Assembly: GCF_010729895.1 (NCBI RefSeq)
Contig: NZ_AP022612.1
Location: 2,418,001-2,482,000, forward strand
Direction: 5' to 3'
Length of the DNA: 64,000 nt
From: Mycolicibacterium confluentis
GTDB taxonomy: Bacteria; Actinomycetota; Actinomycetes; Mycobacteriales; Mycobacteriaceae
Every line of letters begins with the position of its first letter. Position 1 is the stretch's first letter. Below, in pieces: positions 35,617 to 55,699 of the stretch. The notes under the pieces were generated by a model. It worked only from the letters and a program-made list of their open reading frames with translations, ran no database searches and was not told where the DNA came from. A program made the translations under genes and the position numbers.

Positions 35617-35624
35617 GGGTGGCG

Positions 35625-40590: not shown

Positions 40591-41100
40591 CTAGCTTCTC
40601 CAGTCCTCGACAACGATGCGCCACCGCTCCCCCAACTCGTCAGCGAGCCGCTGCAGGGCGCGGGTCAGGCACAGTGTCCCGCGGGCTGAGCCGCCGTCGA
40701 GTATCGGTGAGACGATGACACCGTCCACGACGCCAAGCCGCGCCAGGTCCGCCAGATAGGATCCCAGCCCGGCATGCGTACCGTAGTAACGCAGTCGATT
40801 CTGTAACTCTGACGACTCCGCATGCTCGACAGGCACCAACTTCTGGGACGAGGCGCAGGCCGCCTCCGCCAAGCCGACGTGCAGATCCAGCAACGACAGG
40901 CGCGGTGACGTGTGTTTGATTCGCTCAGCGATCACATACGCACGGCCCAAATGCGGCGCATAGATGACCGACGCCGGACGCCGGACGCCTTGGACGTACA
41001 CATCTTCAGGCTGGTGGCCCAAGCTGCTCGCAGCGAACCCGGCTGGCCTGCCCTGCTGAGCGATGATCACCGTGAATATCAGCTCCGGCCTGTATGACAT
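40591..41100 (-). CDS. Hypothetical protein at the end of the importer operon
   Basis: A 169-residue soluble protein with no family I recognise. It has VIYAPHLGRAYVIAERIKH near residue 45 and helical stretches such as LLDLHVGLAEAACASS. A longer frame starts at 41160 inside the ATPase gene; I prefer the ATG at 41100, which follows AAGACAGG. It lies 28 bp after the ABC ATPase and may be transcribed with it. The function cannot be inferred. Confidence 0.5.
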   Translation of the reverse strand: MSYRPELIFTVIIAQQGRPAGFAASSLGHQPEDVYVQGVRRPASVIYAPHLGRAYVIAERIKHTSPRLSLLDLHVGLAEAACASSQKLVPVEHAESSELQNRLRYYGTHAGLGSYLADLARLGVVDGVIVSPILDGGSARGTLCLTRALQRLADELGERWRIVVEDWRS

Positions 41101-41128
41101 GGCCTGTCTTGGGCTGGAGTGCTGTGCG

Positions 41129-42832
41129 TCAGCTCCGTGTCGTGAAGGATTCGAGCTCATCGGCCGCTGCGATCAGTTGACGGGTGTACTCGAATTCAGG
41201 CGATGAGATCAGGTCGGCAGTCGGCTTATCCTCGAGAATCTCGCCGGAGTGAATCACCGCGGTCCGTTGCGCAATGCTGGTGATTACGCCGAGATCATGC
41301 GACACGAAGAGAAGAGCCAGTTGGAGCTCCTGGCTGAGTGTCTTCAACATCCGCAGGATCTTTGCCTGCACCGAGACGTCCAGTGCGGAGGTGATCTCAT
41401 CACAGATCAGGAGTTTCGGCTCCGCAGCCAGTGCTGAGGCGATCATCACCCGCTGCCGTTGACCGCCGGACAACTCGCGCGGCCGGCGTGCCGCCGCGGA
41501 GGCATCCAGCTCCACCAGATCGAGATAGCGTCGAACCTCGTCGGCGTTGGCGGCGCGCCGACCACCTCGCCTCAGCTGAATCGGACGACCGACGATCTCG
41601 TTCACCGTCAATGCGGGGTTCAAAGACAGCGTCGGATTCTGAAACACAACCTGAATCGAGCGCAGCTGCTCAGTGGAACGATCCTTGTAGCGCAACGGCA
41701 GATTCTGTCCGTCGAAGGTGATCGTTCCACCGTTCGCGTCCACGAGCCCACTGATGCAGCGGGTCAGCGTCGTCTTACCGCTGCCTGATTGGCCCGCGAT
41801 GGCGACCCGCTCGCCCACCCCGATCCGCAGATCTACGTTCCGCAGGATGGGCACGTAGGTTCCCCGGGATCGGTATCCGGCCTGCAGGCCCTGCACAGTC
41901 AGGACATCGCCTTGACTGTGCAGCTGGGTATCGGCCGCCGCTCCCCTGCCCTGCGGTTGCGCAGGGCCGGTGACCGAGACGGTGCTAGGCGGGCGGGACG
42001 CCACGGGCTCAGGTGCATCGATCCGGGCTCGGTGGCTGGGAATCGCGGCGACCAGGCTCTTGGTGTACTCGTGCTGAGGGTCCTGAAGCACAGTCCGAGC
42101 ATCGCCGGTCTCCACGATGCGACCCCGATGCATGACACACACGCGGTCCGCCAGATCTGCGACCACGCGGAGATCGTGCGAGACGTACACCATCGCGACG
42201 CCCAGTTCGTCTCTCAGCGAGCGGATTTCACGCACGATGAGGGCCTGTGTCAGCAGGTCCAGTCCGGTGGTCGGCTCATCGAACACAACTGCCCCAGGCC
42301 GCGCGGCAAGTGCTGCACCGATGGCAAGACGCTGCTGTTGACCACCGGAGAGCTGATGCGGAAACCGCCTGATGAAGTCGCGGTCGGTGGGCAGGTCGAC
42401 GCGGCTCAGCGCAGCACCGATGCCTGACGAACTCTGGTCGCGGCCCGCATGTGCGGCCAGCATCGAGTTGATCAGCTTGGCGACCCGCATCGAAGGATTC
42501 AGGGCAGACGGCGGGTCCTGGGGGACGTAGGCGATCTCCAGACCGCGCACCGCCCGCAGCTGTGCCGGTGTCAGCTCGAGCAGATTCCTTCCGGAGACTT
42601 CGACACGGCCGGCGAGCGTCACGCCGGGGGTTGCATAGCCCAGCAACGCCAGAGACGTCGTGGTCTTACCGCTGCCGGACTCTCCGATGATTCCCAGGAT
42701 CTCACCCGGTGCCACCGAGAACGACACGTCCTCGACGATCTTCGTGCCGTCGTCGAGTTCGGCGGTCAACCCCGCGACGTTGATGAATGCAGTGCCTGTC
42801 TTCGCCGGGGAGGTCAATGATTCCGCCGTCAC
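41129..42832 (-). CDS. Dipeptide/opine-type ABC transporter, fused double ATPase
   Basis: A 567-residue protein fusing the two ATPase subunits of a Dpp/Opp-type importer (DppD-DppF order, as in GsiA). Domain one has Walker A GESGSGKTTT near residue 54, signature LSGGQQQRLAIGAAL near 166 and Walker B VVFDEPTTGLD near 187. Domain two has Walker A GQSGSGKTTL near 350, signature LSGGQRQRVMIASAL near 460 and Walker B LICDEITSALD near 480. It powers uptake through permeases at 42829 and 43653. The start overlaps the permease stop (ATGA-like). Confidence 0.95.
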   Translation of the reverse strand: MTAESLTSPAKTGTAFINVAGLTAELDDGTKIVEDVSFSVAPGEILGIIGESGSGKTTTSLALLGYATPGVTLAGRVEVSGRNLLELTPAQLRAVRGLEIAYVPQDPPSALNPSMRVAKLINSMLAAHAGRDQSSSGIGAALSRVDLPTDRDFIRRFPHQLSGGQQQRLAIGAALAARPGAVVFDEPTTGLDLLTQALIVREIRSLRDELGVAMVYVSHDLRVVADLADRVCVMHRGRIVETGDARTVLQDPQHEYTKSLVAAIPSHRARIDAPEPVASRPPSTVSVTGPAQPQGRGAAADTQLHSQGDVLTVQGLQAGYRSRGTYVPILRNVDLRIGVGERVAIAGQSGSGKTTLTRCISGLVDANGGTITFDGQNLPLRYKDRSTEQLRSIQVVFQNPTLSLNPALTVNEIVGRPIQLRRGGRRAANADEVRRYLDLVELDASAAARRPRELSGGQRQRVMIASALAAEPKLLICDEITSALDVSVQAKILRMLKTLSQELQLALLFVSHDLGVITSIAQRTAVIHSGEILEDKPTADLISSPEFEYTRQLIAAADELESFTTRS

Positions 42833-43656
42833 GACTTCGTCCTATCCGCGCGTACGCCAGAGCGTTTCAGTGTGTTGCGACGACGTGTTCGCGCCGCTCG
42901 ATCGCCGGCGAGGTTGACGCCGAAGATGAACAGGCCGATCAGCACCGCAGGGGCCAAGGTTGCCAGTGGCTGGATGGACAACCCGATCCGATTCTCGGAC
43001 ACCATGAGTGCCCAGTTCGACGACGGCGGGGTCTCACCGAGGCCGAGGAACGTCGCGCCGGCGATGAGGAGAATCGAGGACGCGGTGCGAGTCCCGAAGT
43101 CGGCGGCCAGCGTAGGCATGACGTTCGGCCACACGTCCCGACGGGCTATCGCGAACGTACGCTCACCTCTCAGCCAGGAGGCGTCGACATAGCTCGAGAG
43201 CACGACGTCACTCGCGCTTGCGCGGGCAAGCCTGCACACCTGCGGGAAGTGGCCGATGATCACCGCCACGACGACGACGGTCACGCCCTTTCCCGCGCTC
43301 GTTGCCAGCAGCAGCAGCAACAGGATCGGCGGAAACGCAAGGACGACGTCGTTGAGCCAGGTCATGACCCGTTCGGCACCACCACCGCGCAACGCCATGA
43401 AGACGCCCACCGGAGCGGCCAGCAGGTAGGAGACGGCGGTGGCGACGACTCCTGTGACGATCAATCCGAGTCCGCCGTAGAGCACCCGGGACCACACGTC
43501 GCGTCCCAGCGCATCCAGGCCGAGCAGCCCGATCTGGGAACTGTAGGGGGTGCCCACCACCTCGGTGGGCGAATACGGCGCGATGAAGCGGCCGAAGACT
43601 GCAAACAGGAGGATTCCGGTCAGGATGACGAGCCCGACTTTGCGCTGAGTGGTCAT
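42829..43656 (-). CDS. ABC transporter permease, DppC type
   Basis: A 275-residue permease with about six membrane helices. It starts with the short cytosolic TTQRKVGLV and a first helix LILTGILLFAVFG. The EAA-like coupling loop reads ASDVVLSSYVDASWLRGERTFAIARRDVWPN near residues 160-190. GLDALGRDVWSRVLYG near 52 is the standard DppC signature. ATG at 43656 overlaps the DppB stop by ATGA. Second channel subunit of the island's importer. Confidence 0.95.
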   Translation of the reverse strand: MTTQRKVGLVILTGILLFAVFGRFIAPYSPTEVVGTPYSSQIGLLGLDALGRDVWSRVLYGGLGLIVTGVVATAVSYLLAAPVGVFMALRGGGAERVMTWLNDVVLAFPPILLLLLLATSAGKGVTVVVVAVIIGHFPQVCRLARASASDVVLSSYVDASWLRGERTFAIARRDVWPNVMPTLAADFGTRTASSILLIAGATFLGLGETPPSSNWALMVSENRIGLSIQPLATLAPAVLIGLFIFGVNLAGDRAARTRRRNTLKRSGVRADRTKS

Positions 43657-44711
43657 CGCTGTCCCCACCGCCGCGGGGTCACCAGGACGATCAGGGCGTC
43701 GTTCAGGGTGTTGACCACGATGTAGACAGCTGCGATCAGCGCTGTCACACCCAGAATGACCGGGAAGTCCCGCTGCAGAGTCGCATTCACGGCCATCAAT
43801 CCGATTCCCGGGTACTGGAACACGGTCTCCACCAGAACCACTCCACCCACCAGATAGACAAGGATGAACGAGATGCTCTGTATGCAGGGCGCCAGTGAAT
43901 TGCGGAGCGCGTACTTGAAGACAATGTCACGCTCCTTGACGCCGTTCAGCCTGGCCATCTTCACGTACTCAGACGACATCGCCTCAGCAACGCCGGCCCG
44001 CACGATGCGCAGCGCGTAACCCATGTTCACCAAAACCATTGTGAGGACCGGTAGTACGAGGACACGTGGATCGGCGAGCGGACTGCCGTTCGCCGGGAAC
44101 ACCGAGATCGCCGGAATCACGCCGTTGCTCTGCACACCAATCAGATAGGCCAGCAGCGCGCCCAGGGTGAACTCGGGCATCGAAAGGAACCCCAGAGTCG
44201 ACGTTGAGATGATCCGATCAACGCGAGACCCGGGCGAGGCGCCAGCGTAGGCGCCGAGCACCAGCGCTGCCGGTACGAGCAGCAGTAGCGCGCACCCTGC
44301 CAGGATCAACGAATTCGAGATACGTGGCGCAAGAATCGATGTCACTGACTCCTGGGAGACCAGAGACTTGCCGAAGTCACCGGACAACACGCCCGTCAAC
44401 CAGTTCCAATAACGCTCCAGCAGGGGCTGATTGAGCCCCAGCGACTCCCGGATCGCAGCGATCCGCTCGGGTGAGGCGCTGCGGCCCAGCACCGCGCTGA
44501 CGGGGTCCCCCGGCAGCAGAGCGGCGGCGAAGAAGGCGAGTGTGAGGACCGTGAACAGCAGCGCGATCCCAGCGCCCACACGCTTGGCTATCACCACTCC
44601 GACGGCGATCCAGGGTCTCTGCTGCAGCATCGCCGACACCCGTGCTGCAATTGATCGCTCATCACTGACTTCGTTCGAACTCGTCGGACTCAGCCCGACA
44701 TCAAGACTCAT
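43653..44711 (-). CDS. ABC transporter permease, DppB type
   Basis: A 352-residue permease. A polar N-terminal tail of about 45 residues precedes the first helix (GAGIALLFTVLTLAFFAAALLPGDP), which is longer than usual for DppB. RESLGLNQPLLERYWNWLTGVLSGDFGKSL is the family's periplasmic signature, and the coupling loop is VRAGVAEAMSSEYVKMARLNGVKE. The C-terminal helices include FQYPGIGLMAVNATLQRDFPVI. It forms the channel with the DppC-type subunit at 42829. The 209 bp between it and the flavin reductase hold nothing I can identify. Confidence 0.95.
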   Translation of the reverse strand: MSLDVGLSPTSSNEVSDERSIAARVSAMLQQRPWIAVGVVIAKRVGAGIALLFTVLTLAFFAAALLPGDPVSAVLGRSASPERIAAIRESLGLNQPLLERYWNWLTGVLSGDFGKSLVSQESVTSILAPRISNSLILAGCALLLLVPAALVLGAYAGASPGSRVDRIISTSTLGFLSMPEFTLGALLAYLIGVQSNGVIPAISVFPANGSPLADPRVLVLPVLTMVLVNMGYALRIVRAGVAEAMSSEYVKMARLNGVKERDIVFKYALRNSLAPCIQSISFILVYLVGGVVLVETVFQYPGIGLMAVNATLQRDFPVILGVTALIAAVYIVVNTLNDALIVLVTPRRWGQR

Positions 44712-44920
44712 CGAATGGCTCCTTCAACACAAAGCGGTCGAGCACACAGTCGTGGCGGCCCCGCCCACGACTGTGTTCCTCCTGCGAGCACGTCACCGAT
44801 CCACACGCTGGCGGTCCCGCTGCCGTACAGCGCGCTCACAGACACCGGCGAACAGTACGGGACGGATGACCCGGGCACAGCGCGTGCTTCGGGTCATGCG
44901 CCGATCGTCGTGGTGGCCGG

Positions 44921-45448
44921 TCATGAATCGCCGGAGTTCGCGGACGGACTCCCTGCGCTTAACGCGTAGCCTCCGCGGTGGTACAGCAGTGCCTCCCGCG
45001 CTTGCCGCTCGGAGTGGAAATCGAGGACCCGTCCAACGACCAGATGATGGTCTCCGATCGTGTATTCGGCTTCGAGGCGACAGTCGATCCATCCGAGCAC
45101 ACCGGACAGGACTGGGTTTCCACCAGGGCTCGGGGTCCAGTCCACACCAGCCCACTTGTCGTCGGCCCTCCGGGCAAAGTTGCTCGAGAGGTCGTGTTGC
45201 CCCGCGGCCAGGACATTGCAGCAGAACGACCCGTGCTCACGGATGCGGGGGTAGCTCACCGAGGTGATGCTGGGAGCGAACGCGATGTACGGCGGGTCCA
45301 ACGACAGTGACAGAAAAGACTGGCACGTCATGCCAACGGGGTCGTCGGCATCAGCGGTGACAACCACGATCCCTGAGGGGAAGACACCCATGATGTCGCG
45401 CAACTCTCGTTGGTCGAACGACCGACCGGCTTCTCGTTGTTCAGTCAC
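44921..45448 (-). CDS. Flavin reductase family protein (HpaC/DIM6-type)
   Basis: A 175-residue flavin reductase. The FMN-binding split-barrel motifs are IMGVFPSGIVVVTA near residue 18, PVGMTCQSFLSLSLDPPYIAF near 37, and FCCNVLAAGQHDLSSNFARR near 74. GDHHLVVGRV near 132 carries the conserved histidines. It supplies reduced flavin (FMNH2 or FADH2) to a two-component monooxygenase, here almost certainly the LLM enzyme at 46005. The GTG start lies inside the stop region of the next upstream gene (8-base overlap). Confidence 0.9.
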   Translation of the reverse strand: MTEQREAGRSFDQRELRDIMGVFPSGIVVVTADADDPVGMTCQSFLSLSLDPPYIAFAPSITSVSYPRIREHGSFCCNVLAAGQHDLSSNFARRADDKWAGVDWTPSPGGNPVLSGVLGWIDCRLEAEYTIGDHHLVVGRVLDFHSERQAREALLYHRGGYALSAGSPSANSGDS

Positions 45449-45965
45449 CGGCGGAGAGGTTTCGGGCCATGAGGTTCATCGCGGCGATCCCGTGCGCATT
45501 GCTGGTCATCCACTCCTCGATCAGGTCGTCGAGGTGATCGAGTTGACTTGTAGCGACCGGAAATGCTGCCGTCGCCACCGTCGCGCCGAGTTCGACCAGC
45601 ACGGGACGCAGTTGTGTCTCCGCGGCTAGATAGTGCCGGTCAGACCCGATGGTCATCAGCGGAACTGCGAAGACGCCCGCCAGATCACCGGCCCCGTAAT
45701 GGTCTAGGAATGCCTTCAGCAGGCCGGTGAAGCTGGCCTTGTACGTCGGGGTCGCGACGACGACCACATCGGCATCGAGCACCCGATGCTTCGCGTCGAG
45801 CACCTTCGTGGAGCTGAAATCGAATACTTCAGACGCAATCTCGCTGAGTTCGAGGGTGTGGGGATCGCTGTCACCGAGTTTCTCGGCCAGACGTCTGGCC
45901 GCGGCCACGGTCCGTGACCCCGGCTGGGGGTTCCCGCTCACGATCGAGACCTTCAACGCGCTCAT
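45441..45965 (-). CDS. NADPH-dependent FMN reductase (SsuE/MsuE-like)
   Basis: A 174-residue flavodoxin-like reductase. VSIVSGNPQPGSRTVAAARRLAEKL at the N-terminus is the phosphate-binding loop, VVVVATPTYKASFTGLLKAFLDHY near residue 69 is the family signature, and GSDRHYLAAETQLRPVLVELGA near 107 follows. SsuE/MsuE enzymes feed FMNH2 to alkanesulfonate-type LLM monooxygenases, which suits the enzyme encoded at 46005. Two dissimilar reductases for one monooxygenase in one operon is unusual. Confidence 0.9.
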   Translation of the reverse strand: MSALKVSIVSGNPQPGSRTVAAARRLAEKLGDSDPHTLELSEIASEVFDFSSTKVLDAKHRVLDADVVVVATPTYKASFTGLLKAFLDHYGAGDLAGVFAVPLMTIGSDRHYLAAETQLRPVLVELGATVATAAFPVATSQLDHLDDLIEEWMTSNAHGIAAMNLMARNLSAGD

Positions 45966-46004
45966 CGGGGCATCCTTCCTGGTGTTGTCGAATCGACGGT
46001 TCTG

Positions 46005-47309
46005 TCAGAACGCACGCAGGTTGTCCCGGAGAAACTCGTGGCCATACTCGGTCCTGACCCGACCGCGACGTTGCAGCGCGGGCACCAACCCCTCCGTCAC
46101 CTCGGCCACGAATCGGCGGTTCAGGCTGTTGGAGCCGGTGTAGATCAGGAACCCATCGCCACCGACCTCGTCGACGATCTCCCCCATCCGGTCAGCAACC
46201 TCGTCGGGTGTGCCCACCAGCTCGACGCGAGGCGAGAGGTAGTCGATCGCCAGCTCGCGCAACGTCTTTCCGCTTCCACGCTGCAGAAACATCTCCAGGG
46301 CGGACTGTTCGCCGTCGGTCGTGAGGTCCTGTGGCGGCACCTCGTCGAGCGGGAACTGTGAGAAGTCGATGTCGGTCGTGAAGGAGAACTGCGCCAAGAT
46401 GTTCTCCACCGCGCGATCACTGGTGATGTTCCGCCGGTTAGCCGCCACCGCCTCCTCGGTGGTGGCCCCCAGGACCGGCATCATGATGAACAGGATCTTG
46501 ATCTCGTCGGGGTTTCGACCGTGCGCGGCGGCACGGGCACGCACATCGTCGCGGAACTTGCGCATGTCCTCGATGCTGCCCGGGTTGGCGACGATCGAAT
46601 CTGCGTACTTGGCCGCGAAGTCACGGCCTTTGGGTGAGCCACCTGCCTGCACGAACACCGGCTGCCCATTGGGCGGACGAACAGTGGTGAGCGGACCCTT
46701 CGAACGGAAGTACTCGCCATCGTGATCCACCGCGCGCACGCTGCCCGGCGCAAAGTACGCACCGGTCTCGCGATCACGGACGATGTTGTCGGCATCCCAG
46801 GAGTTCCACAGTTCACGCACCAGATCGATGTACTCGTGGGCGATGTCGTAACGCTTGTCGTGGGGCGGCAGCTTGTCCATGCCGAAGTTCAGTGCGGCCT
46901 GATTCTGCGCGGACGTCACGATGTTCCAGCCGAATCGCCCCTTGGCGATGTGGTCCACCGTGGCCACCGTTCGAGCCAGCATGTAGGGCGGATAGAAAGC
47001 CGTGGACATGGTTGCGATGATTCCGAGCCGCGACGTGGCAGCTGCGATGACGGCCGCGAGCGGAACCGGATCATGCTTGGGTGCCCACAGGGCGTGCTTG
47101 AGATAGGTGTCAAAGGAGCGGCCGTAGGCATCGGGAACGCTGACAGTGTCCTCGAACATCATGTAGTCGAAGCCGGCGCGCTCCAACGACTGCGCCATCT
47201 CGACATAGAACTTTCCGTCCCACGGCTCATCTGGCGGCGAGAACGGTCCGGTGAAGTCGTTGGCGACGAATCCAACGAACCAGCCCAGGTGAAACTTCTT
47301 GGGAGACAA
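46005..47309 (-). CDS. NtaA/SnaA/DszA-type LLM flavin-dependent monooxygenase
   Basis: A 434-residue flavin monooxygenase of the nitrilotriacetate monooxygenase group. Family marks are FHLGWFVGFVANDFTGPF at the N-terminus, DYMMFEDTVSVPDAYG near residue 50, the long RFGWNIVTSAQNQAALNFG near 125, and PVFVQAGGSPKGRDFAAKYADSI near 215. Relatives cleave C-N bonds (NTA, EDTA), C-S bonds (dibenzothiophene sulfone, sulfonates) or hydroxylate. The start is a TTG at 47309 behind AAAGGATAACGAC; no ATG or GTG fits the conserved N-terminus. It is transcribed with two flavin reductases, an amidase and an ABC importer. Confidence 0.85.
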   Translation of the reverse strand: MSPKKFHLGWFVGFVANDFTGPFSPPDEPWDGKFYVEMAQSLERAGFDYMMFEDTVSVPDAYGRSFDTYLKHALWAPKHDPVPLAAVIAAATSRLGIIATMSTAFYPPYMLARTVATVDHIAKGRFGWNIVTSAQNQAALNFGMDKLPPHDKRYDIAHEYIDLVRELWNSWDADNIVRDRETGAYFAPGSVRAVDHDGEYFRSKGPLTTVRPPNGQPVFVQAGGSPKGRDFAAKYADSIVANPGSIEDMRKFRDDVRARAAAHGRNPDEIKILFIMMPVLGATTEEAVAANRRNITSDRAVENILAQFSFTTDIDFSQFPLDEVPPQDLTTDGEQSALEMFLQRGSGKTLRELAIDYLSPRVELVGTPDEVADRMGEIVDEVGGDGFLIYTGSNSLNRRFVAEVTEGLVPALQRRGRVRTEYGHEFLRDNLRAF

Positions 47310-47373
47310 GTCGTTATCCTTTCGATCGTGCTGATGAGTTTGCAGCTTGTTCGCGCAGCGGCGGCCTGTCGGC

Positions 47374-48846
47374 TCAGCTGAAAGTCGGTCGGCCGGAACT
47401 GTCGCTGTAGCGGCTGCGGCTGCGGTCGAGAGCGGCGGCAGCGGCCAGGGAGTCGATGTCCTGATAGGGCCGGCCGACGAACTGAGCGCTCGTCGGCATC
47501 CCGTTCGCATCGAATCCGGTCGGGACCGCCGTCGACGGGCAGCGGCCGAGAATATTGAACGGTCCGGTCATCAGGCCGTCGCGCTCGACGTTGCTGGCGA
47601 CCTTGCCGTTGATGGTCGGGCCGCGGTCAACATACGACTGACCCGCGTCGAGTGCGATGGTGGCCAACGTGGGGCACAGCAGAATTCGATACTGCTCGAA
47701 TACTCGCGACAGTGGCCGGTAGAACTGCGCTTCGGCTTCGTAGGTTTCGGCCATCGTCATGGCGGCCGCTCCGGCGGTCGACCGCTCGATGAAGTCGAGC
47801 GTGTAGTCGTTGAGCAGGTCGGCGTTGTCCACCGCATGGCGAGCGGCTGCCGCGCCGGCGATGTGACCGAAGTGCGCGTCCAGCATGGCCTTGATCTGCC
47901 CGCGTGTCCAGGGCAGTTCGATCTCATCGACGATGAACCCGAGCTGGCGAAGCTGCTCGGCCTCGGCCCGAAGGTTGTCCTCGATGGCCTGCTCGATCTC
48001 GTAGTCGCCCAGGTTGACACACAACGCCACTCGCCAGCCGGTCACGTCGGGAAGCCGGGCGGGCATGTCCAGTGTCGGCGCGAGGGTGGCGATATCGTCT
48101 GGATGGTGTCCCTGCATGATGCCGAAGAGCAGCGCGGCGTCGTCGACTGTCCTGGCCAAGGGGCCGTTCTGGCAGTAGTGGTCCAGGTTCCATGGCGGTA
48201 CGTCGGGAACTCGGCCGTACGAGGGTTTGAAGCCGACGACTCCGCAGAACGCGGCGGGGATGCGGATGGAACCGCCAATGTCCGATCCCGTCGCCAGCGT
48301 GGTGGTTCCGGCCGCCAGCGCGGCACCCGAGCCTCCGGACGAGCCACCTGCCGACTTGGTGAAATCCCACGGCGTCGGGGTCAGGCCCCACATCCGCGAC
48401 TGGGTGAATGGCGCACAACAGAACTCGGGTGTGGTCGTCCGTGCATGCATGATGCCGCCGGCATCGAAGATGCGCTGGGCCAGGGGCGCGGTCTCCGTCG
48501 CGATATGGCCGGCGTGGGTCAGGGAACCTTCCGTGTGTGAAAGTCCTTGTATTGGGACTTCCTCCTTGATGGCGACGGCAAGACCCTCCAGCGGTCGAGC
48601 CCTGTGTCCGTCACCCGCGTATGCATCTGCCGCGCGGCGAGCCATTTCAAGAGCATCGTCGAAGAACGTCTCAGCGAATGCGTTGATCTGGGGTTCGAGC
48701 TGCTCGGCCCGGTCAATCAGGGCCTGCATGAGTTCGACGGGAGAAAGCTCCTTGGCGCGAAACAGTTCCAATGCGTCCGCAGCAGAGATATAGGCCAGGT
48801 CCTCGACCGTGGTGATGTCGGTACTGCGACCGATAATCGATGTCAT
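47374..48846 (-). CDS. Amidase (amidase signature family)
   Basis: A 490-residue amidase-signature hydrolase. The Ser-cisSer-Lys triad is visible: lysine in AVAIKEEVPIQG near residue 90, the cis-serine in KSAGGSSGGSGAALAAG near 168, and the nucleophile serine in LATGSDIGGSIRIPA near 190. It hydrolyses a carboxamide to acid and ammonia or amine. ATG at 48846 has GAAAGG upstream; a longer frame to 49203 is not supported. It sits between the binding-protein gene and the LLM monooxygenase, suggesting it removes an amide from the imported compound. Confidence 0.9.
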   Translation of the reverse strand: MTSIIGRSTDITTVEDLAYISAADALELFRAKELSPVELMQALIDRAEQLEPQINAFAETFFDDALEMARRAADAYAGDGHRARPLEGLAVAIKEEVPIQGLSHTEGSLTHAGHIATETAPLAQRIFDAGGIMHARTTTPEFCCAPFTQSRMWGLTPTPWDFTKSAGGSSGGSGAALAAGTTTLATGSDIGGSIRIPAAFCGVVGFKPSYGRVPDVPPWNLDHYCQNGPLARTVDDAALLFGIMQGHHPDDIATLAPTLDMPARLPDVTGWRVALCVNLGDYEIEQAIEDNLRAEAEQLRQLGFIVDEIELPWTRGQIKAMLDAHFGHIAGAAAARHAVDNADLLNDYTLDFIERSTAGAAAMTMAETYEAEAQFYRPLSRVFEQYRILLCPTLATIALDAGQSYVDRGPTINGKVASNVERDGLMTGPFNILGRCPSTAVPTGFDANGMPTSAQFVGRPYQDIDSLAAAAALDRSRSRYSDSSGRPTFS

Positions 48847-48962
48847 TGCATAGCCTTTCACCGCCCTGGGCGGCCGATAAAGTTCAACCAACTGCTGATC
48901 TGCCGCTGTCGCAGCACTGGCAACGAAGTGCTGAGCACCCGGTGACCGGGACAGGGGAGAGC

Positions 48963-49005
48963 GATCGGCAGTGGCGCCCCCAGCACGAGGGCGCCACTGC
49001 CGATC
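48963..49005 (-). terminator. Strong hairpin after the binding-protein gene
   Basis: Perfect 17-bp arms (48963-48979 and 48989-49005) flank a 9-base loop, immediately after the stop of the SBP gene at 49010 and before the amidase. No U-tract follows, which is normal for mycobacteria. It may act as a partial terminator or a 3' stabiliser, leaving the binding protein more abundant than the downstream gene products. Confidence 0.75.
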
Positions 49006-49009
49006 CGGG

Positions 49010-50581
49010 TCACTGATCCAACCAGACCTCGTTGAGTCCGGCCATCCTGAATCCGACCTGCTTGCCGCCGGCATAGGCGTCGAGCCCCTGCACCTTGCCG
49101 GCGTGCGCAGTGAGGAAGTCGCCGTATCCCCAGACGATGTAGATGTGCTCCTGCTGAATCTGCTTGGCGAGTTCGGCGTAGGCGGCGTTTCGTGCGTCGG
49201 CATCCATCAGCGCCTGTGCTTCGAAGAAGGCCCGGTCGAATTCGGGGTTGGCGAAGCCGACCTCGTCGAAGAACGCGCCGTTGAGCATCGTCATCCGGGC
49301 CAGGTACTCGAAGGATGCACCCAGCCATGCGGTCATGCCGAAGTCCCAGGACAGGTATCCGGCATCGGGATTGAACACGTCCTGACCGGGAACGGTGCTG
49401 AAGTCAATCGTGATCCCGGCCGCCTTGGCGGACTCTTGGAAGACCTGGGCGCACTCGACCATTCCCGGCCCGCCCGGACCAAGGTGCAGTGTGATGCTGG
49501 GATTGTTGATCCCCGCTTTGGCGAGCACGGACTTGGCGCGCTCCGGGTCGTAGCTGATCGTCTCGGCGTCCTTGGGGAAGGACGGGAAGTTCACTCCGAA
49601 GAGGTCCGAGGCGACCGTACCCTTGCCCTGCAGAGCGACATCGACACACTTCTGCCGGTCGATGGCCAGCGACAGTGCCTCACGAAGCGCCGGCTGGTTG
49701 GTGGGCGCCGAGTCGGCGCGCATGTAGAAGTTCGACGCTGCCGCACCAGTCTTCGCGGCCACGGAGACACCGGCCTGTTCGAACGCCGCCACGGACGTCG
49801 GCGACACGTCGACGGAGACATCGACAGCACCGGAGAGTACGGCGTTGACGCGCGCGGTCTCATCGCTCATCGGCATCACCACGAGTTCGTCGAGGTGCGC
49901 CTTCGTGCCCCAGTAGTCGTCGTTGCGAACGAAGACGCTGCGATCACCGCGCGTCCATGACTTGAACTTGAACGGACCGGTTCCGACTGGCGCTTCGAAG
50001 TTCTCGGTGCCCGACTTGACGATCGATGTCGACGGGTCGACGAAGAACGACGGGAAGTCTCCGGCGGGCTTCTTCAGTTGGAAGACGATGGTGTGATCGT
50101 CGACCTTCTCAGTCCGGTCGAAGTCGACAACCGAGAGGGTGGCGGCCGCGGCAGCGCCTGAGTCCACAACCCGGCGAAGCGAATACAGCACGTCTGCGGC
50201 CGTGAGCGGTGTGCCGTCATGGAACTTGACGTTCTCACGAACCGACATCGTCCACTCGGTGCCGTCTTCGTTGGGGGTGAACTCGGACGCGAGCAGCATC
50301 TGGGGGCTGCCGTCCTGGCCCAGTTCGACGAGCTGATCGTAGAGTGCGCCGAGCCTGGTCTGGTCGGGCGTGTTCGCCCATTTGGTGGGGTCGAGGGTCT
50401 CGGTCTGTCCCCCGCCGATCGCGGCGAGCGTGAGCGTGCCGCCGTCCTTTGGAGTTCCCGTCGACTGCTGCCCGGAGTCCTGTGCCGGGGTACCGCAAGC
50501 CGGTACCAACACCAGGATCGCCGCGGCCGCGATGAGGCTGCGTGCCCACGGCTTATGGACCAGTGGCTGAATCTTCTTCAC
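49010..50581 (-). CDS. Dipeptide/opine-type ABC substrate-binding lipoprotein
   Basis: A 523-residue SBP_bac_5 (cluster C) binding protein. The signal peptide (SLIAAAAILVLVPAC) ends in the lipobox VPAC, cysteine near residue 28. Family features are DPTKWANTPDQTRLGALYDQL near 60, SVRENVKFHDGTPLTAADVLYSL near 115, and GTGPFKFKSWTRGD near 180. Such proteins bind peptides, opines, sugar oligomers or nickel complexes. GTG at 50581 follows AAAGGCAGGTCC. First gene of the minus-strand catabolic operon, divergent from the aldehyde dehydrogenase with an operator-like palindrome between. Confidence 0.9.
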   Translation of the reverse strand: MKKIQPLVHKPWARSLIAAAAILVLVPACGTPAQDSGQQSTGTPKDGGTLTLAAIGGGQTETLDPTKWANTPDQTRLGALYDQLVELGQDGSPQMLLASEFTPNEDGTEWTMSVRENVKFHDGTPLTAADVLYSLRRVVDSGAAAAATLSVVDFDRTEKVDDHTIVFQLKKPAGDFPSFFVDPSTSIVKSGTENFEAPVGTGPFKFKSWTRGDRSVFVRNDDYWGTKAHLDELVVMPMSDETARVNAVLSGAVDVSVDVSPTSVAAFEQAGVSVAAKTGAAASNFYMRADSAPTNQPALREALSLAIDRQKCVDVALQGKGTVASDLFGVNFPSFPKDAETISYDPERAKSVLAKAGINNPSITLHLGPGGPGMVECAQVFQESAKAAGITIDFSTVPGQDVFNPDAGYLSWDFGMTAWLGASFEYLARMTMLNGAFFDEVGFANPEFDRAFFEAQALMDADARNAAYAELAKQIQQEHIYIVWGYGDFLTAHAGKVQGLDAYAGGKQVGFRMAGLNEVWLDQ

Positions 50582-50687
50582 GGACCTGCCTTTCCGATTT
50601 TTCGGTGTCGCGCAACGCAGAAGCCTTGCGCCCTGCCTTTCTTGACTTGCAGCGCACACTATCAGTACCTTCCGAAATTGAGAACGG

Positions 50688-50706
50688 TTGTACGAAATAT
50701 CGACAA
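50688..50706. promoter_or_regulatory. IclR-type operator 1 (SBP/ALDH divergent promoter)
   Basis: TTGTACGAAATATCGACAA at 50688-50706 is a 19-bp imperfect palindrome with TTGT...ACAA ends. Its reverse complement matches the site at 54127-54145 in 16 of 19 positions. It lies between the binding-protein and aldehyde dehydrogenase genes and is probably bound by the IclR protein at 53261. Confidence 0.65.
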
Positions 50707-50720
50707 ACGAAGGGCCGGCA

Positions 50721-52268
50721 TTGGATTCGCGACGGGAAGAACTCACCTCGGTTGACGCCAGGACGGGTGAGGTGGCGTCACTGGCCACATCCAGCACACC
50801 ACCGGATGAGCTGACGTCGATGGCCCGCGACGCTGCGGCTGCGGTGCCCTATCTGTGCGGCCTGGGCCGGACCGGCCGCGCCGCGCTGCTCAACCAACTG
50901 GCCGATGCCCTGGAGCGACGACGGTCGGACATCGTCGACGTCGCCGACAAGGAGACCGCGCTGGGCGGCGTTCGCCTCAACGGTGAGCTCACCCGGACAT
51001 GTGTGCAGCTGCGATTCATGGCTGAGGTGGTGGCCGAGGGCAGTTACCTCAACGCGTCGATCGATCATCCCGGTGACACCCCGATGGGGGTGCGCCCGGA
51101 CCTGCGGAGAACATCCATCCCGATGGGCCCCGTGGCGGTCTTCGGGGCCAGTAATTTCCCCCTCGCGTTCAGCGTGCCCGGTGGCGACACCGCATCCGCG
51201 CTTGCCGCCGGGTGCCCGGTGATCGCAAAGGCGCATCCCTCCCACGTTGCGACATCGGCGCTGATCGCTGAGATCTGGCTGGATGAACTGCAGCGATTTG
51301 GCGCGCCCCCAGGGGTGTTCAGCATCGTTTATGGGATGGACGCCGGAACCGCGTTGATCCTTGACCCGAACATCAAGGCGGTCGGTTTCACGGGATCGCT
51401 GGCCGGCGGGCGCGCGCTCTTCGACCTGGCGGGCCGGCGGGAAACGCCGATCCCCTTCTACGGCGAGTTGGGCAGCGTCAATCCACTCGTGGTGACGGCA
51501 GCGGCCGCCGATGATCGCGGGGAGTCCATCGGTGCCGGTATCGCGGCATCGATGACACTGGGAGTCGGTCAGTTCTGCACCAAGCCCGGCCTGTTTCTGA
51601 TCCCGGCCTCCCCCGCGGGCGACCGAGTCGTCGAAGCGCTGGTCTCTGGTCTGCGCGGCGTCGAGCCCGCATACCCGTTGAATGCCGGGATCCGCGAGGC
51701 GTACCGCGAAGGAGTCGCTCGGATCGCCACCGTCGCAGAGGTTCTCGTGGGCCAGGCCACGACCGACGGTCGTCAGATCGGGCCAGTGCTGGCAGCCGCT
51801 GATGTCGAAGCGGTCGTTGGGGACGGACAACGTCTGCTCACCCACGAGATCTTTGGCCCCTTCGGCCTGTTGGTTCGGTACCGGGAGACAGCCGAAGTCC
51901 TCCGCGTGCTCAGAAGCCTTCCGGCCACCCTCACCGGTACCGTGCATGTCGGCGATGCCGATCAGGACGCGGCCGCGATCACCACCGAGCTCGAAAACCT
52001 CTCCGGCAGAATTGTTTACAATGGATACCCGACCGGGGTTGCGGTGTCGTGGTCGATGCAGCACGGCGGCCCCTATCCGGCATCCACGGTCTCCGCGTCG
52101 ACGTCGGTCGGTGCCGCCGCGGTCGGCCGTTGGATCCGCCCACTCTGCTACCAGGACGCGCCTCAGTCGGTGTTGCCCGACGAACTCCGAGACACTCCGT
52201 CGCAACCTCTTCCACGCCGGATAGACGGGCGTCTGATCACCCCCACCCCCCAACCAGGAGCCAACTGA
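50721..52268 (+). CDS. Aldehyde dehydrogenase (alpha-ketoglutaric semialdehyde type)
   Basis: A 515-residue aldehyde dehydrogenase of the branch that includes alpha-ketoglutaric semialdehyde dehydrogenases. FGASNFPLAFSVPGGDTASALAAG near residue 140 and AVGFTGSLAGGRALFDLA near 225 form the cofactor site. The general base glutamate is in FYGELGSVNPLVV near 252 and the nucleophilic cysteine in GVGQFCTKPGLF near 290. The C-terminal WSMQHGGPYPAST is characteristic of this branch. The start is probably TTG 50721 after GAAGGGCC, though a TTG at 50688 inside the operator is in frame. It precedes the DapA-type gene with a one-base overlap. Confidence 0.85.
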   Translation: MDSRREELTSVDARTGEVASLATSSTPPDELTSMARDAAAAVPYLCGLGRTGRAALLNQLADALERRRSDIVDVADKETALGGVRLNGELTRTCVQLRFMAEVVAEGSYLNASIDHPGDTPMGVRPDLRRTSIPMGPVAVFGASNFPLAFSVPGGDTASALAAGCPVIAKAHPSHVATSALIAEIWLDELQRFGAPPGVFSIVYGMDAGTALILDPNIKAVGFTGSLAGGRALFDLAGRRETPIPFYGELGSVNPLVVTAAAADDRGESIGAGIAASMTLGVGQFCTKPGLFLIPASPAGDRVVEALVSGLRGVEPAYPLNAGIREAYREGVARIATVAEVLVGQATTDGRQIGPVLAAADVEAVVGDGQRLLTHEIFGPFGLLVRYRETAEVLRVLRSLPATLTGTVHVGDADQDAAAITTELENLSGRIVYNGYPTGVAVSWSMQHGGPYPASTVSASTSVGAAAVGRWIRPLCYQDAPQSVLPDELRDTPSQPLPRRIDGRLITPTPQPGAN

Positions 52269-53179
52269 TGAGCCTCATCCGAGGTGCTATCCCCGTCGTG
52301 CCGACAGTGTTCAACGACGAGCACGAACTCGACTGTGCCGGACAACGGAGGGTCGTCGACTTCCTCGTCGACGCCCGCTCGGCCGCCATCTGCGCTATGG
52401 CGAACTACTCGGAGCAGTTCTCACTGACCGACACCGAGCGCGACGTCGTCGTCGAAACCACGATCGATCAGGCCGCGGGGCGGATTCCGGTCTGCGTGGC
52501 CACCAGTCACTACAGCGCCCGTGTCGCGGCGGAGCGCAGTCGGCGCGCTCAGGAACAGGGTGCGGCACTTGTGATGCTCATGCCCCCGTTCGTCGGCGCC
52601 TCGGTGACGGTCGACGAGCGAGGTGTCGTCGAGTACTTCACGCGCGTGGCCGAGGCCATCGACATCCCGATCATGATCCAGGATGCGCCGATGAGTCCGA
52701 CGCCGTTGTCGGCTGAACTGCTCGCTCGGCTCGCACGCACCATTCCGCACGTGCAGTACGCGAAGATCGAAGTGGCTCATGCCGCCGACAAGATCCGTCG
52801 AGTGCACCAGATGGCCGGGGAGGACATGCCCGGCCTCTACGACGGCGAGGAGGCGGTGACGCTCATCCCTGATCTGTTGGCCGGGGCTCAGGGCACGATG
52901 AGCAGTTCGATGATCCCAGAGATTCTGGCAGAGGCCATCCGACTGTTCCATGACGGCGAACGCGATGCGGCTCAGGGCGTCTGGGAGGATGCGCTGCCAT
53001 TGATTCAGTTCGAGAACCGCCAATGCGGCCTGCGGGCAACCAAGATTCTGCTCAAGGAGGGTGGCATCATCGGCAGCGATGCCACGCGCTCACCGATGCG
53101 CACAGTGCACCCGGACACCCGGGTCCAGCTCATCGAACTGGCCAAGCGGAAGAACGCACTCATCCTGCGATGGGCGTGA
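52268..53179 (+). CDS. DapA-family lyase/dehydratase
   Basis: A 303-residue dihydrodipicolinate synthase superfamily TIM-barrel protein. AIPVVPTVFNDEHELD is the usual N-terminal strand, and the Schiff-base lysine is in VQYAKIEVAHA near residue 165. The YNxP motif of true DapA is replaced by IMIQDAPMSP near 140, so it is not a lysine-pathway enzyme. With an alpha-ketoglutaric semialdehyde dehydrogenase-type gene before it and a sugar-acid dehydratase nearby, a 5-dehydro-4-deoxyglucarate dehydratase or a 2-keto-3-deoxy acid aldolase fits best. The ATG overlaps the ALDH stop (TGATG). Confidence 0.85.
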   Translation: MSLIRGAIPVVPTVFNDEHELDCAGQRRVVDFLVDARSAAICAMANYSEQFSLTDTERDVVVETTIDQAAGRIPVCVATSHYSARVAAERSRRAQEQGAALVMLMPPFVGASVTVDERGVVEYFTRVAEAIDIPIMIQDAPMSPTPLSAELLARLARTIPHVQYAKIEVAHAADKIRRVHQMAGEDMPGLYDGEEAVTLIPDLLAGAQGTMSSSMIPEILAEAIRLFHDGERDAAQGVWEDALPLIQFENRQCGLRATKILLKEGGIIGSDATRSPMRTVHPDTRVQLIELAKRKNALILRWA

Positions 53180-53260
53180 CCTCGCGCCATGGCGGTTGGA
53201 GCACCATCGCATCGGACGATCCGATCCGGTGAATGCTGCCAGGTGGCCGGCGGGACGGGC

Positions 53261-54025
53261 TCAGCTCGGGGATCCGAGCTCGAGCCCGATCTCGCGAGCC
53301 CCAGTGGTGACCAGGTCCACCCACTCCTGCTCGGGTCGCTGCTTCCAGCGGATGTAGGGCACCGAGACACTCAGCGCGGCAATCAACTTCCCCCGATGAT
53401 CACGCACAGGCGCGGCCACGCAGGTGACGTCCGGATTGGACTCACCGAACTCGAACGCGACACCACGCTGCCTGATCATCCGGATCTGGGCCATGATCTC
53501 CGCCGGATCGGTGATGCTGTTGGGGGTCAGCGATACGAGCGATTCCCGGGTCAGCATCTTGGCCAGCTCGGTGTCGTCGAGTGCTGCCAGGAGCACCTTT
53601 CCGATCGCCGTGCAGCTCGCCGGCAGCCGTCCGCCCACCTTCGATATGGTGTGGACGGCGAAGGTGCTGTCGACCTTGCAGAGGTAGACGATGCTGTCGT
53701 CGTCGAGCACGCCGAAGTTGACGGTCTCGTTGCAGCGGGCAGCAACTCGCTCCGTCACCCGCTGACCAACCTTGAGCAGGTCAAACTGATCGGCGAAGGC
53801 GAAGCCGAGCCGAAACGCGTTGATGCCCAGCTGATAGATCCCGTTGGCGTTGTCGCGTCGCAGATACTTCGTCGCGACCATGGTGGCCAGCAACTCATGA
53901 ACGGTGGTGCGGGGCAGGCCCGTGTGTTCCACGATCTGCGCAGACGTCAGGCCCTGTCCCCCATCGTCGATGAACATCTCGAGAATGCCGAAAGCGCGCA
54001 CGAGAGCCGGTGTCAGTCGTGTCAT
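53261..54025 (-). CDS. IclR family transcriptional regulator
   Basis: A 254-residue IclR regulator. The N-terminal winged helix reads TSAQIVEHTGLPRTTVHELLATM (residues 27-49). The C-terminal effector domain contains NFGVLDDDSIVYLCKVDS near 105, the LPASCTAIGKVLLAAL loop near 133 and VAAPVRDHRGKLIAALSVSVP near 210. ATG at 54025 has GGGGAGAGG upstream. It is divergent from the sugar-acid dehydratase gene, and 19-bp sites of matching sequence occur both there and in the SBP/ALDH promoter, so it most likely controls the whole island. The effector is probably a pathway intermediate. Confidence 0.9.
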   Translation of the reverse strand: MTRLTPALVRAFGILEMFIDDGGQGLTSAQIVEHTGLPRTTVHELLATMVATKYLRRDNANGIYQLGINAFRLGFAFADQFDLLKVGQRVTERVAARCNETVNFGVLDDDSIVYLCKVDSTFAVHTISKVGGRLPASCTAIGKVLLAALDDTELAKMLTRESLVSLTPNSITDPAEIMAQIRMIRQRGVAFEFGESNPDVTCVAAPVRDHRGKLIAALSVSVPYIRWKQRPEQEWVDLVTTGAREIGLELGSPS

Positions 54026-54126
54026 GGTGAGCCTCTCCCCGCATGATTTGAGTGGCACCGCGCAGGGTGCGCCTCCCCAACCTGAGTGGCCGAGTCTACC
54101 TATAGTTGTCCAATATATCTGTCCCA

Positions 54127-54145
54127 TTGTCAAAATTTCGAACAA
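54127..54145. promoter_or_regulatory. IclR-type operator 2 (IclR/dehydratase divergent promoter)
   Basis: TTGTCAAAATTTCGAACAA at 54127-54145 is a palindrome with TTGT...ACAA ends, matching the reverse complement of the site at 50688-50706 in 16 of 19 positions. It ends ten bases before the dehydratase ATG, suiting repression. A related half site, TTGTCCAATATATC, starts at 54106. Confidence 0.65.
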
Positions 54146-54154
54146 GGTGAAGCG

Positions 54155-55699
54155 ATGCCCACGGCGCAGAACGTCCCCACTCTGATTCAACTCGATCCGC
54201 GTGACAGCGTCGGGCTCACTCGTCAGCATCTACCGCGGGGCGCGGTGATCTCCACTGCCGCAGGAGAACTCACGTTGGTCTCGGAGGTTCCCCGCAGTCA
54301 CAAGGTCGCACTTCGCCCGATCGCCCGAGGCGAAGAGGTCCGACGGTACGGCCAGATCATCGGGTTTGCCGCCGCGGACATCCGAGCGGGCGAGCACGTG
54401 CATCTGCACAACCTCGAGTATCAGGAGTTCGATCGCGAATACGAATACTGCGTCGATGCACGGCCTGAAGAGGTGCTGCCCGCCAGTGAGCGTGCGACGT
54501 TCCGCGGCTACGTCCGCTCCGACGGGCGGGTCGGCACACGGAACTACATCGGCGTCCTCACCACGGTCAACTGTTCGGCCACCGCGGCCAAGCGGATCGT
54601 CGGACAGATCCGGCAGTCCGGCGTTCTCGAGGAGTACCCGAACATCGACGGGATCGTCGCCCTGACGCATGGCACGGGTTGCGGAATGGCTCAGGTCAGC
54701 CAGGGGATGGAGATCCTGAGGCGCACGATGCGAGGTTACCTGGGGCACCCTAACTTCGGTGGGTTCCTGGTGCTCGGGTTGGGGTGCGAGGACAACCAGA
54801 TCAGCATGCTGACCCGGGATGTGTCTCTGCGCGCGGATCTCCCGATCGCCTACTCCACGATCCAGGAGTTGGGCGGTACGGCAAAGACTGTGCAGGCCGG
54901 AGTCGCGGTCCTGCAGGGCATGTTCGAGCAGGTCAACCGCGCCCAGAGGGTGACCGTCCCCGCATCGGAGCTCATCCTGGGCACCAACTGCGGTGGGTCC
55001 GACGCGTTCTCCGGCATCACGGCAAATCCTGCGCTGGGCAACGCCGTCGATCGGCTGGTCCGGCAGGGCGGCGCGGCGATTGTGGGCGAAACGCCGGAGA
55101 TCTACGGCACCGAGCACATGTTGGTGCGACGGGCGGCGAGCGAAAGCGTGGCTACGAAGCTCCTCGAACGCATCGAGTGGTGGCGCCGCTACACCGAGAT
55201 GAATGACGGAACCATGGACAACAATCCGTCGCCCGGGAACAAAGATGGTGGGCTCACGACGATTCTCGAGAAGTCCCTTGGCGCGGTGGCAAAAGGCGGG
55301 ACGACGACGCTGCGTGAGGTTCTCGAGTACGCCGAACCGGTGACATCCAAGGGCTTCATCTTCATGGACACACCAGGATTCGACCCGGTGTCGGTGACAG
55401 GGATCATCGCCGGGGGCGCCAACCTGGTGTGCTTCACGACGGGGCGCGGGTCTGCGTTCGGATGCGCGCCGGTTCCGTCGCTGAAGCTGGCGACCAATTC
55501 TGAACTGTATGCCCGGATGACCGATGACATGGACATCAACTGCGGCGGAATCGCCGATGGCACCGCCACTGTGAGCGAGATCGGCGAGCAGATCTTCAAC
55601 GAGATCCTGCGTGTCGCATCGGGCACCCAGACCAAGAGCGAAGAATTCGGTTACGGCGATGAGGAATTCGTGCCGTGGCTCCTCGGCACAGTGATGTGA
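54155..55699 (+). CDS. UxaA/GarD-family altronate or galactarate dehydratase
   Basis: A 514-residue sugar-acid dehydratase. The N-terminal SAF domain (about 1-95) starts IQLDPRDSVGLTRQHLPRG. The second and C-terminal galactarate-dehydratase/altronate-hydrolase domains contain GYVRSDGRVGTRNYIGVLTTVNCSA near 123, LTHGTGCGM near 170, LGTNCGGSDAFSGITANPALG near 275, and TGRGSAFGCAPVPSLKLATN near 430. The cysteines (CSA, GCGM, NCGG, GCAP) likely bind iron. It removes water from an aldonate or aldarate to give a 2-keto-3-deoxy acid, upstream of the DapA-type and ALDH enzymes. ATG after AAGGTGAAGCG. Confidence 0.9.
   Translation: MPTAQNVPTLIQLDPRDSVGLTRQHLPRGAVISTAAGELTLVSEVPRSHKVALRPIARGEEVRRYGQIIGFAAADIRAGEHVHLHNLEYQEFDREYEYCVDARPEEVLPASERATFRGYVRSDGRVGTRNYIGVLTTVNCSATAAKRIVGQIRQSGVLEEYPNIDGIVALTHGTGCGMAQVSQGMEILRRTMRGYLGHPNFGGFLVLGLGCEDNQISMLTRDVSLRADLPIAYSTIQELGGTAKTVQAGVAVLQGMFEQVNRAQRVTVPASELILGTNCGGSDAFSGITANPALGNAVDRLVRQGGAAIVGETPEIYGTEHMLVRRAASESVATKLLERIEWWRRYTEMNDGTMDNNPSPGNKDGGLTTILEKSLGAVAKGGTTTLREVLEYAEPVTSKGFIFMDTPGFDPVSVTGIIAGGANLVCFTTGRGSAFGCAPVPSLKLATNSELYARMTDDMDINCGGIADGTATVSEIGEQIFNEILRVASGTQTKSEEFGYGDEEFVPWLLGTVM

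Follow-up and report, generated by a model that had tools for sequence, protein, structure and literature searches.

A likely pentonate catabolic gene set lies head to head with a recurrent importer/monooxygenase module in Mycolicibacterium confluentis

Dehydratases of L-2-keto-3-deoxypentonate (L-KDP) and of its D isomer are described, in excerpts of the source, as each specific to its own isomer (PMC7374468). Parts of a second paper report a member of the UxaA/GarD superfamily as a D-arabinonate dehydratase and describe four conserved cysteines in the protein C785_RS13685 (PMC6336799). The flavin monooxygenase CmoJ, according to excerpts of a third, takes part in recovering cysteine from acetylated S-alkylcysteine (PMC10863075). 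Here, we analyzed a 64,000-nucleotide stretch of Mycolicibacterium confluentis (contig NZ_AP022612.1, positions 2,418,001 to 2,482,000; hereafter, the window), in which a 15-kb locus on a single 5.88-Mb contig combines gene families found in these systems. We think it probable that the locus consists of two separate units arranged head to head: a pentonate module (module A; 50.7 to 55.7 kb), which would convert a pentonate to alpha-ketoglutarate, and a front-end module (module B; 40.6 to 50.6 kb) that encodes a Dpp-type importer, an amidase, an NtaA-type monooxygenase, and two flavin reductases. An initial annotation had listed the same genes at the same coordinates, and family scans bore it out for the solute-binding protein (SBP), the importer, the amidase, the monooxygenase, both flavin reductases, the aldehyde dehydrogenase (ALDH), and the DapA-type and UxaA/GarD-type dehydratases; DppB and DppC were recognized by context.

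The DHDPS-family protein is the strongest guide to module A. Its best matches in the PDB are two L-2-keto-3-deoxyarabonate (L-KDA, or L-KDP) dehydratases, 7c0c (E = 1.1e-93) and 3fkk (E = 2.4e-93), to which it aligns without gaps over residues 7 to 305 (299 residues); the next entry follows at 6e-22. L-KDA dehydratases are thus its nearest solved relatives in a comparison that included no 5-keto-4-deoxyglucarate enzyme, and by sequence the protein is a putative L-KDP dehydratase of the Route II pentonate pathway. The abutting gene encodes an ALDH whose best PDB matches are 1eyy (E = 9.3e-116) and the NADP+-dependent ALDH 3v4c (E = 7.7e-113). The motif residues, a catalytic Cys and Glu, are present in the alignment. 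We take 1eyy to be the Vibrio harveyi enzyme and this ALDH branch to be that of the type III alpha-ketoglutaric semialdehyde dehydrogenases.

To place this gene pair in context, 11 plasmid stretches (L062, L095 to L100, and L103 to L106; 5 of them without annotation) were picked by hand from the best 25 of 397 records matching the L-KDA dehydratase. Homologues of the ALDH family, with 44 to 46% identity, lie near L-KDA dehydratase genes in four of these stretches (L097, L099, L103, and L106), which come from Azospirillum argentinense, Caballeronia sp. SBC1, and two strains of a single species, Paraburkholderia largidicola. An IlvD/Edd dehydratase is annotated near the L-KDA dehydratase on three stretches, a UxaA-family gene directly adjoins it on one (L062, from Caballeronia), and other transporters lie near these genes on the plasmids. 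Sequence and context together point to an alpha-ketoglutaric semialdehyde dehydrogenase linked to an L-KDA dehydratase, and this end of the route, which the initial annotation had proposed, is upheld by both the PDB matches of the ALDH and the recurrence of its family on the plasmids.

The beginning of the route had been annotated as aldarate catabolism, an assignment that we set aside. On the galactarate dehydratase model TIGR03248, the UxaA/GarD-family protein scores 404.8 bits, far under the cutoff of 730.85, and the match of the DHDPS-family protein to L-KDA dehydratases at ∼1e-93 leads away from an aldarate substrate as well. A true galactarate or glucarate route, in which the DHDPS-family enzyme would act on 5-keto-4-deoxyglucarate, draws some support from the dehydratase, which is nearer to Escherichia coli GarD (39% identity) than to E. 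coli UxaA (34%), and alpha-ketoglutaric semialdehyde also arises in the aldarate route; given the GarD model score and the gap between the L-KDA dehydratases and the next PDB entry, we nevertheless consider this route quite unlikely. From the L-KDA-type dehydratase, the context of the ALDH, and the position of the UxaA protein far under the GarD cutoff, we conclude that module A likely encodes a route from a pentonate to alpha-ketoglutarate. The UxaA-family enzyme would dehydrate the pentonate to 2-keto-3-deoxypentonate; removal of another water by the DHDPS-family enzyme would yield alpha-ketoglutaric semialdehyde, which the ALDH would then oxidize to alpha-ketoglutarate.

Module B recurs without these genes. 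A second copy lies in the same genome at ∼1,004,600 to 1,013,900 (G000:C1; L052 14606 to L053 3991); its proteins are 86% (NtaA), 75% (SBP), 73% (DppB), 71% (DppC and amidase), 63 to 68% (DppDF), 58% (SsuE), and 43% (orf171) identical to those of the window. At E ≤ 1e-150, NtaA matches occur in 26 of 297 genus genomes, but identity of at least 80% is found only in the window genome, with its two copies, and in two relatives (G653 and G730); across the three other module copies, the identities are 86, 84, and 82%. All nine front-end genes are present in G653 and all except the second flavin reductase (Flavin_Reduct) in G730; among the three other copies, a Flavin_Reduct homologue (59%) occurs in only one (L089). 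Eight front-end genes are therefore present in all four copies, from three genomes, and the pentonate genes in one. The window copy has a gene order unlike that of the other three.

No matches to the ALDH, L-KDA dehydratase, IclR, or UxaA proteins were found in the 20-kb stretches around the G653 and G730 modules. A search of both whole genomes found no UxaA homologue at E ≤ 1e-10, using a query that recovered its own genome and three others, and only distant DapA relatives (25 to 28% identity). The three other copies have an Lrp/AsnC gene next to orf171 and no pentonate genes beside them. With the Lrp/AsnC protein of the second copy as the query, counterparts with 82.6 and 78.7% identity were found next to the modules of the two relatives; the 64-kb window yielded no match at E ≤ 1e-3. 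Likewise, 35 NtaA loci from a genome collection, which may omit records very near the window genome, lacked UxaA, L-KDA dehydratase, and ALDH matches in the stretches covered, several of which were short. SBP matches with 32 to 37% identity occur in 9 of 147 other genomes; the five stretches that were compared (L054 to L058) have Dpp genes and gave no NtaA or amidase match. Separately, three actinobacterial loci (L030, L034, and L035) have a Dpp-type importer together with four to six NtaA-family monooxygenase matches.

On this sequence evidence, the front-end module stands on its own. Because its genes recur without the pentonate genes, the pentonate route is not needed for module B, and because relatives have module B without module A, the product of B need not be a pentonate. 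These observations bear on the single pathway that the initial annotation had drawn across the locus, in which an amide- or amine-bearing sugar-acid derivative would be imported, opened by flavin-dependent oxygenation and amide hydrolysis, and its skeleton burnt through the dehydratases and the ALDH. The physical adjacency of the genes, a candidate operator common to both divergent regions (described below), the absence of another transporter beside module A, and the absence of an Lrp gene from the window speak for such a pathway. We judge it unlikely, since three other copies carry the front end without dehydratase or ALDH genes, UxaA was not found in G653 and G730, and none of the 35 NtaA loci, some of them short, had a match to the pentonate enzymes. 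Separate loci in relatives had been named in advance as the outcome that would count against the joint pathway, and for the front end, with its three copies free of pentonate genes, this is the outcome observed. One joint aldarate pathway spanning both modules is not supported.

In module B, the monooxygenase exceeds the cutoff of the NtaA/DmoA family model TIGR03860, and FMN_red and Flavin_Reduct genes adjoin it, as expected by sequence for a two-component system of this family. Its top PDB relatives are YtnJ/MoxC (250 bits) and the dibenzothiophene desulfurization enzyme A (247 bits), and the same list includes enzymes acting on nitrilotriacetate, EDTA, riboflavin, alkanes, and hexachlorobenzene. 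We take YtnJ to be CmoJ. The best PDB match of the amidase is an aryl acylamidase, and relatives of the SBP in the PDB are nickel-, opine-, and peptide-binding proteins. We propose that the Dpp-type ABC importer would take up a small amide or amino-acid-like compound, that one or both reductases would supply reduced flavin mononucleotide (FMN) to the monooxygenase for cleavage of a C-S or C-N bond, and that the amidase would hydrolyze an amide bond either beforehand or afterward; an Lrp/AsnC protein, missing at the window copy, would be the usual regulator. With modest confidence, we favor a salvage function for module B, in which sulfur or nitrogen would be recovered from a compound resembling an amide or an amino acid.

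A more specific version, compatible with two separate modules, is that the front end salvages organosulfur compounds or modified amino acids, with the NtaA-type enzyme cleaving C-S bonds as do CmoJ, YxeK, and DszA, the amidase acting as a deacylase, and an Lrp-type protein as the regulator. The two top PDB relatives of the monooxygenase, the Lrp/AsnC gene beside the other copies, and the role described for CmoJ in excerpts on acetylated S-alkylcysteine salvage (PMC10863075) argue for it; the other substrates in the same PDB list and the absence of an N-acetyltransferase among the module genes argue against it. We regard this version as a real possibility that falls somewhat short of even chances. 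The module genes include no acetyltransferase and only one oxygenase (the rest of the genome was not searched), and the front end is therefore not the CmoJ-type gene set for S-alkylcysteine salvage.

The last gene of module B, orf171, encodes a small protein that is conserved in all four module copies and has no Pfam or NCBIfam match, including to luciferase-like monooxygenase profiles. In hhalign, its comparison with the NtaA set gave a probability of 0.2 with alignments of four and five rows, that is, no sequence-profile link to the monooxygenase. Its structural model weakly resembles a luciferase-like monooxygenase from which the barrel has been deleted, and orf171 may represent the monooxygenase with which it travels, or a relative of it, minus the barrel. 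Stretches resembling orf171 are present in 59 of 263 genus genomes at E ≤ 1e-6, a count that includes the module copies. A Pfam scan of three such stretches yielded no match better than E = 0.08.

The pentonate genes are rare around the window genome. At E ≤ 1e-60, the L-KDA dehydratase occurs in 2 of 248 relatives, the window genome included, and in 1 of 396 phylum genomes, the window's own; a 20-kb stretch of the only other carrier among the relatives (G231) shows no match to UxaA, the ALDH, or the front end. The UxaA protein is found in 4 of the 396 phylum genomes at E ≤ 1e-100, again including its own, and the stretches around the three other genes show no L-KDA dehydratase match. Many homologues of the pentonate genes, at less than 60% identity, reside on plasmids of Pseudomonadota. 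We conclude that the pentonate genes were likely gained horizontally. The two genes flanking the locus were each found in 11 of 118 genus genomes. The window genome is the sole member of both sets, and the relatives therefore offered no empty site for comparison; no donor was identified.

This distribution raises another explanation, that two unrelated gene sets came to lie side by side in a variable region and share no control. The poor overlap of the flanking genes and the presence of the L-KDA dehydratase in only 2 of 248 relatives are in keeping with an accidental neighborhood, and the 19-bp sequence that occurs in both divergent regions is at odds with it, though that sequence could serve module A alone. 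We hold chance proximity to be possible, at roughly one chance in three.

That sequence is new here. The gene for an IclR-family regulator, on the minus strand, sits between the ALDH/DHDPS-family pair and the UxaA/GarD-family gene, both on the plus strand. The IclR/UxaA and SBP/ALDH intergenic regions, the latter being the divergent promoter region common to the two modules in this genome, carry a common 19-bp sequence, identical at 16 of 19 positions and on opposite strands. None of 1,000 shuffles reached this match at a length of 19, and in the other module copies, five stretches on the promoter side match at 12 of 19 positions at best. A pattern built from the two sites, allowing up to three mismatches, occurs in the window only at these sites (0.01 expected; both are exact by construction) and at one further genomic site, with three mismatches. 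A palindrome search of both intergenic regions found no perfect 6-base dyad and one imperfect 15-nucleotide palindrome, inside the SBP gene. The regulator matched the BhcR, KdgR, and PcaR/PcaU models, all under their cutoffs. XynR, the predicted IclR-type regulator of the xylonate operon in E. coli, responds to 2-keto-3-deoxy-D-xylonate, according to excerpts of its description (PMC13279387). The near-repeat fits a candidate IclR operator of the pentonate genes that is also present in the divergent promoter region of the importer. Through it, the regulator would control two transcripts (UxaA; ALDH plus dehydratase), and, by analogy with XynR, the keto-deoxy acid would probably be the inducer.

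Control of the front end by IclR is possible as well, and because the window has no Lrp gene, the importer may have been locally rewired from Lrp to IclR. The shared regulation claimed in the initial annotation thus gains slight support from the candidate sequence in both divergent regions; it cannot be read from the genes themselves, and the operator is putative. Taken furthest, this idea would have one module copy lose Lrp and be captured by the IclR protein of a pentonate route that had been acquired. The front end would then feed a C5 sugar acid, e.g., from an N-acylated or amide-linked pentonate, into the chain of UxaA, L-KDA dehydratase, and ALDH, and the ancestral substrate would remain with the second copy. 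We regard this scenario as rather improbable.

Several points weigh against two separate modules with the roles proposed. In contrast to the plasmid loci that were read, the window offers module A no dedicated transporter, and uptake for it could fall to the Dpp importer. Site 1 could also act on the importer, being located ∼107 bp upstream of the SBP start. The UxaA/GarD-family protein keeps four cysteines found in 11 of 11 aligned sequences, in line with the four described for C785_RS13685 (PMC6336799). A tree of these 11 sequences, with very long E. coli branches, puts the protein in no well-supported group and does not settle its subgroup. Its identity to the other one-chain altronate dehydratase-family proteins compared does not exceed 58%, and proteins of altronate-like context are as near to it as one of pentonate context. 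As to the 19-bp sequence, the length of 19 was chosen after the match had been seen; at lengths of 18 and 20, 7 and 5 of 1,000 shuffles reached the best match, and in a first test with 30 shuffles, it was reached once each at lengths of 18 and 20, twice at 14, and four times at 16. The five stretches compared from the other module copies did not include the possible promoters that precede SsuE in G653 and G730.

The features of the two modules are collected in Table 1. Elsewhere in the window (35430 to 38788), one protein of an overlapping gene pair has a weak match to thermolysin-type (M4) peptidases, and the other has a subthreshold match to metallo-beta-lactamases.

Table 1. Features of the two modules (positions in the window; ORF, open reading frame)
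Feature	Position	Strand	Remarks
orf171, small protein of unknown function, end of front-end module	40591..41106	-	Start uncertain; no Pfam/NCBIfam match
DppDF-type fused two-domain ABC ATPase	41129..42832	-	Two ABC_tran stretches plus oligo_HPY
DppC-type permease	42829..43668	-	ORF; paralogue 71%, homologues 70% and 70% in same module; named by context and paralogues
DppB-type permease	43653..44711	-	ORF; paralogue 73%, homologues 75% and 78%; named by context and paralogues
Flavin reductase (Flavin_Reduct)	44921..45448	-	PF01613, E = 1.1e-40; in 2 of 4 module copies
NADPH-dependent FMN reductase (FMN_red), SsuE/MsuE type	45441..45965	-	PF03358, E = 3.9e-24; 58, 62, and 59% homologues in three other copies
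NtaA/DmoA-family FMN-dependent monooxygenase	46005..47309	-	TIGR03860, 403.1 bits (cutoff, 279.7); start inferred from orthologues
Amidase-signature hydrolase	47374..48846	-	PF01425, E = 2.1e-80; start inferred; 71, 73, and 72% homologues in three other copies
SBP_bac_5 solute-binding lipoprotein	49010..50581	-	PF00496, E = 2.3e-84; GTG start inferred; 75, 70, and 72% homologues in three other copies
Candidate IclR operator site 1, SBP/ALDH divergent region	50688..50706	+	16 of 19 bases in common with site 2
ALDH, NADP+ type, probable alpha-ketoglutaric semialdehyde dehydrogenase	50721..52268	+	PDB 1eyy, 3v4c; TTG start inferred
L-2-keto-3-deoxyarabonate (L-KDP) dehydratase relative, DHDPS superfamily	52268..53179	+	PDB 7c0c, 3fkk; inferred start overlaps ALDH stop by one base
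IclR-family regulator	53261..54025	-	PF01614 and PF09339
Candidate IclR operator site 2, IclR/UxaA divergent region	54127..54145	-	Near-repeat of site 1
UxaA/GarD-superfamily sugar-acid dehydratase (one-chain altronate dehydratase family)	54155..55699	+	TIGR03248, 404.8 bits, below cutoff of 730.85

In this mycobacterium, entry into the L-KDP route would be by a rare UxaA-type step, and an uncharacterized import/monooxygenase/amidase module is present in two copies that allow direct comparison within one genome. A vague pathway guess has thereby been split into testable pieces, among them the 19-bp candidate operator and the conserved small protein orf171. In the openly licensed literature, we found no published description of the front-end module or of the combined gene set.

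Partial resemblances to known systems can be drawn for both modules. The closest monooxygenase relative outside the genus, 81% identical, is encoded on the Rhodococcus fascians plasmid pFiD188 (L051 15001-16305; NC_021080.1), directly behind the fas genes. The plasmid differs in that the 31 kb read include no annotated Dpp, amidase, or FMN reductase gene. No other module match appears in three contig stretches of the R. fascians type, each covering 21 kb (L004, L006, and L029), and the literature passages on these plasmids, under the terms searched, do not mention the monooxygenase gene. CmoJ salvage, as described in excerpts (PMC10863075), shares with module B a flavin monooxygenase of the same superfamily; module B differs by its Dpp-type importer and amidase-signature hydrolase and by having no acetyltransferase gene.

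For module A, the Herbaspirillum huttiense cluster with C785_RS13685, likened here by its description in excerpts (PMC6336799), has in common a UxaA/GarD-superfamily enzyme with four conserved cysteines, there a pentonate dehydratase; it has FAH-superfamily proteins where the window has a DHDPS-family enzyme. Another sugar-acid dehydratase set with a nonsugar importer is found in Variovorax (CP063167.1; L107 1619-10276): an ABC importer of the amino acid type and a cyclase-family gene come first, and a UxaA-family gene follows, with FAH-family and ALDH genes behind it. With Route II of the nonphosphorylative pentose pathway (L-arabinonate branch), module A shares, by sequence, an L-KDA dehydratase relative and an NADP+-type ALDH that would lead to alpha-ketoglutarate. 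Its first step would be catalyzed by a UxaA/GarD-family dehydratase, in contrast to the IlvD/Edd enzyme annotated on the three plasmid stretches, and no sugar dehydrogenase, lactonase, or sugar transporter was recognized among the genes of both modules. The plasmid locus of Caballeronia sp. M1242 (NZ_CP071131.1; stretch L062) lacks NtaA and Dpp matches in 15 kb and differs by an MFS transporter, an alpha-hydroxy acid oxidase, a more distant ALDH (24%), and a nearby LysR gene instead of IclR, yet it has the same juxtaposition of a UxaA-family gene (54%) directly beside an L-KDA dehydratase gene (52%).

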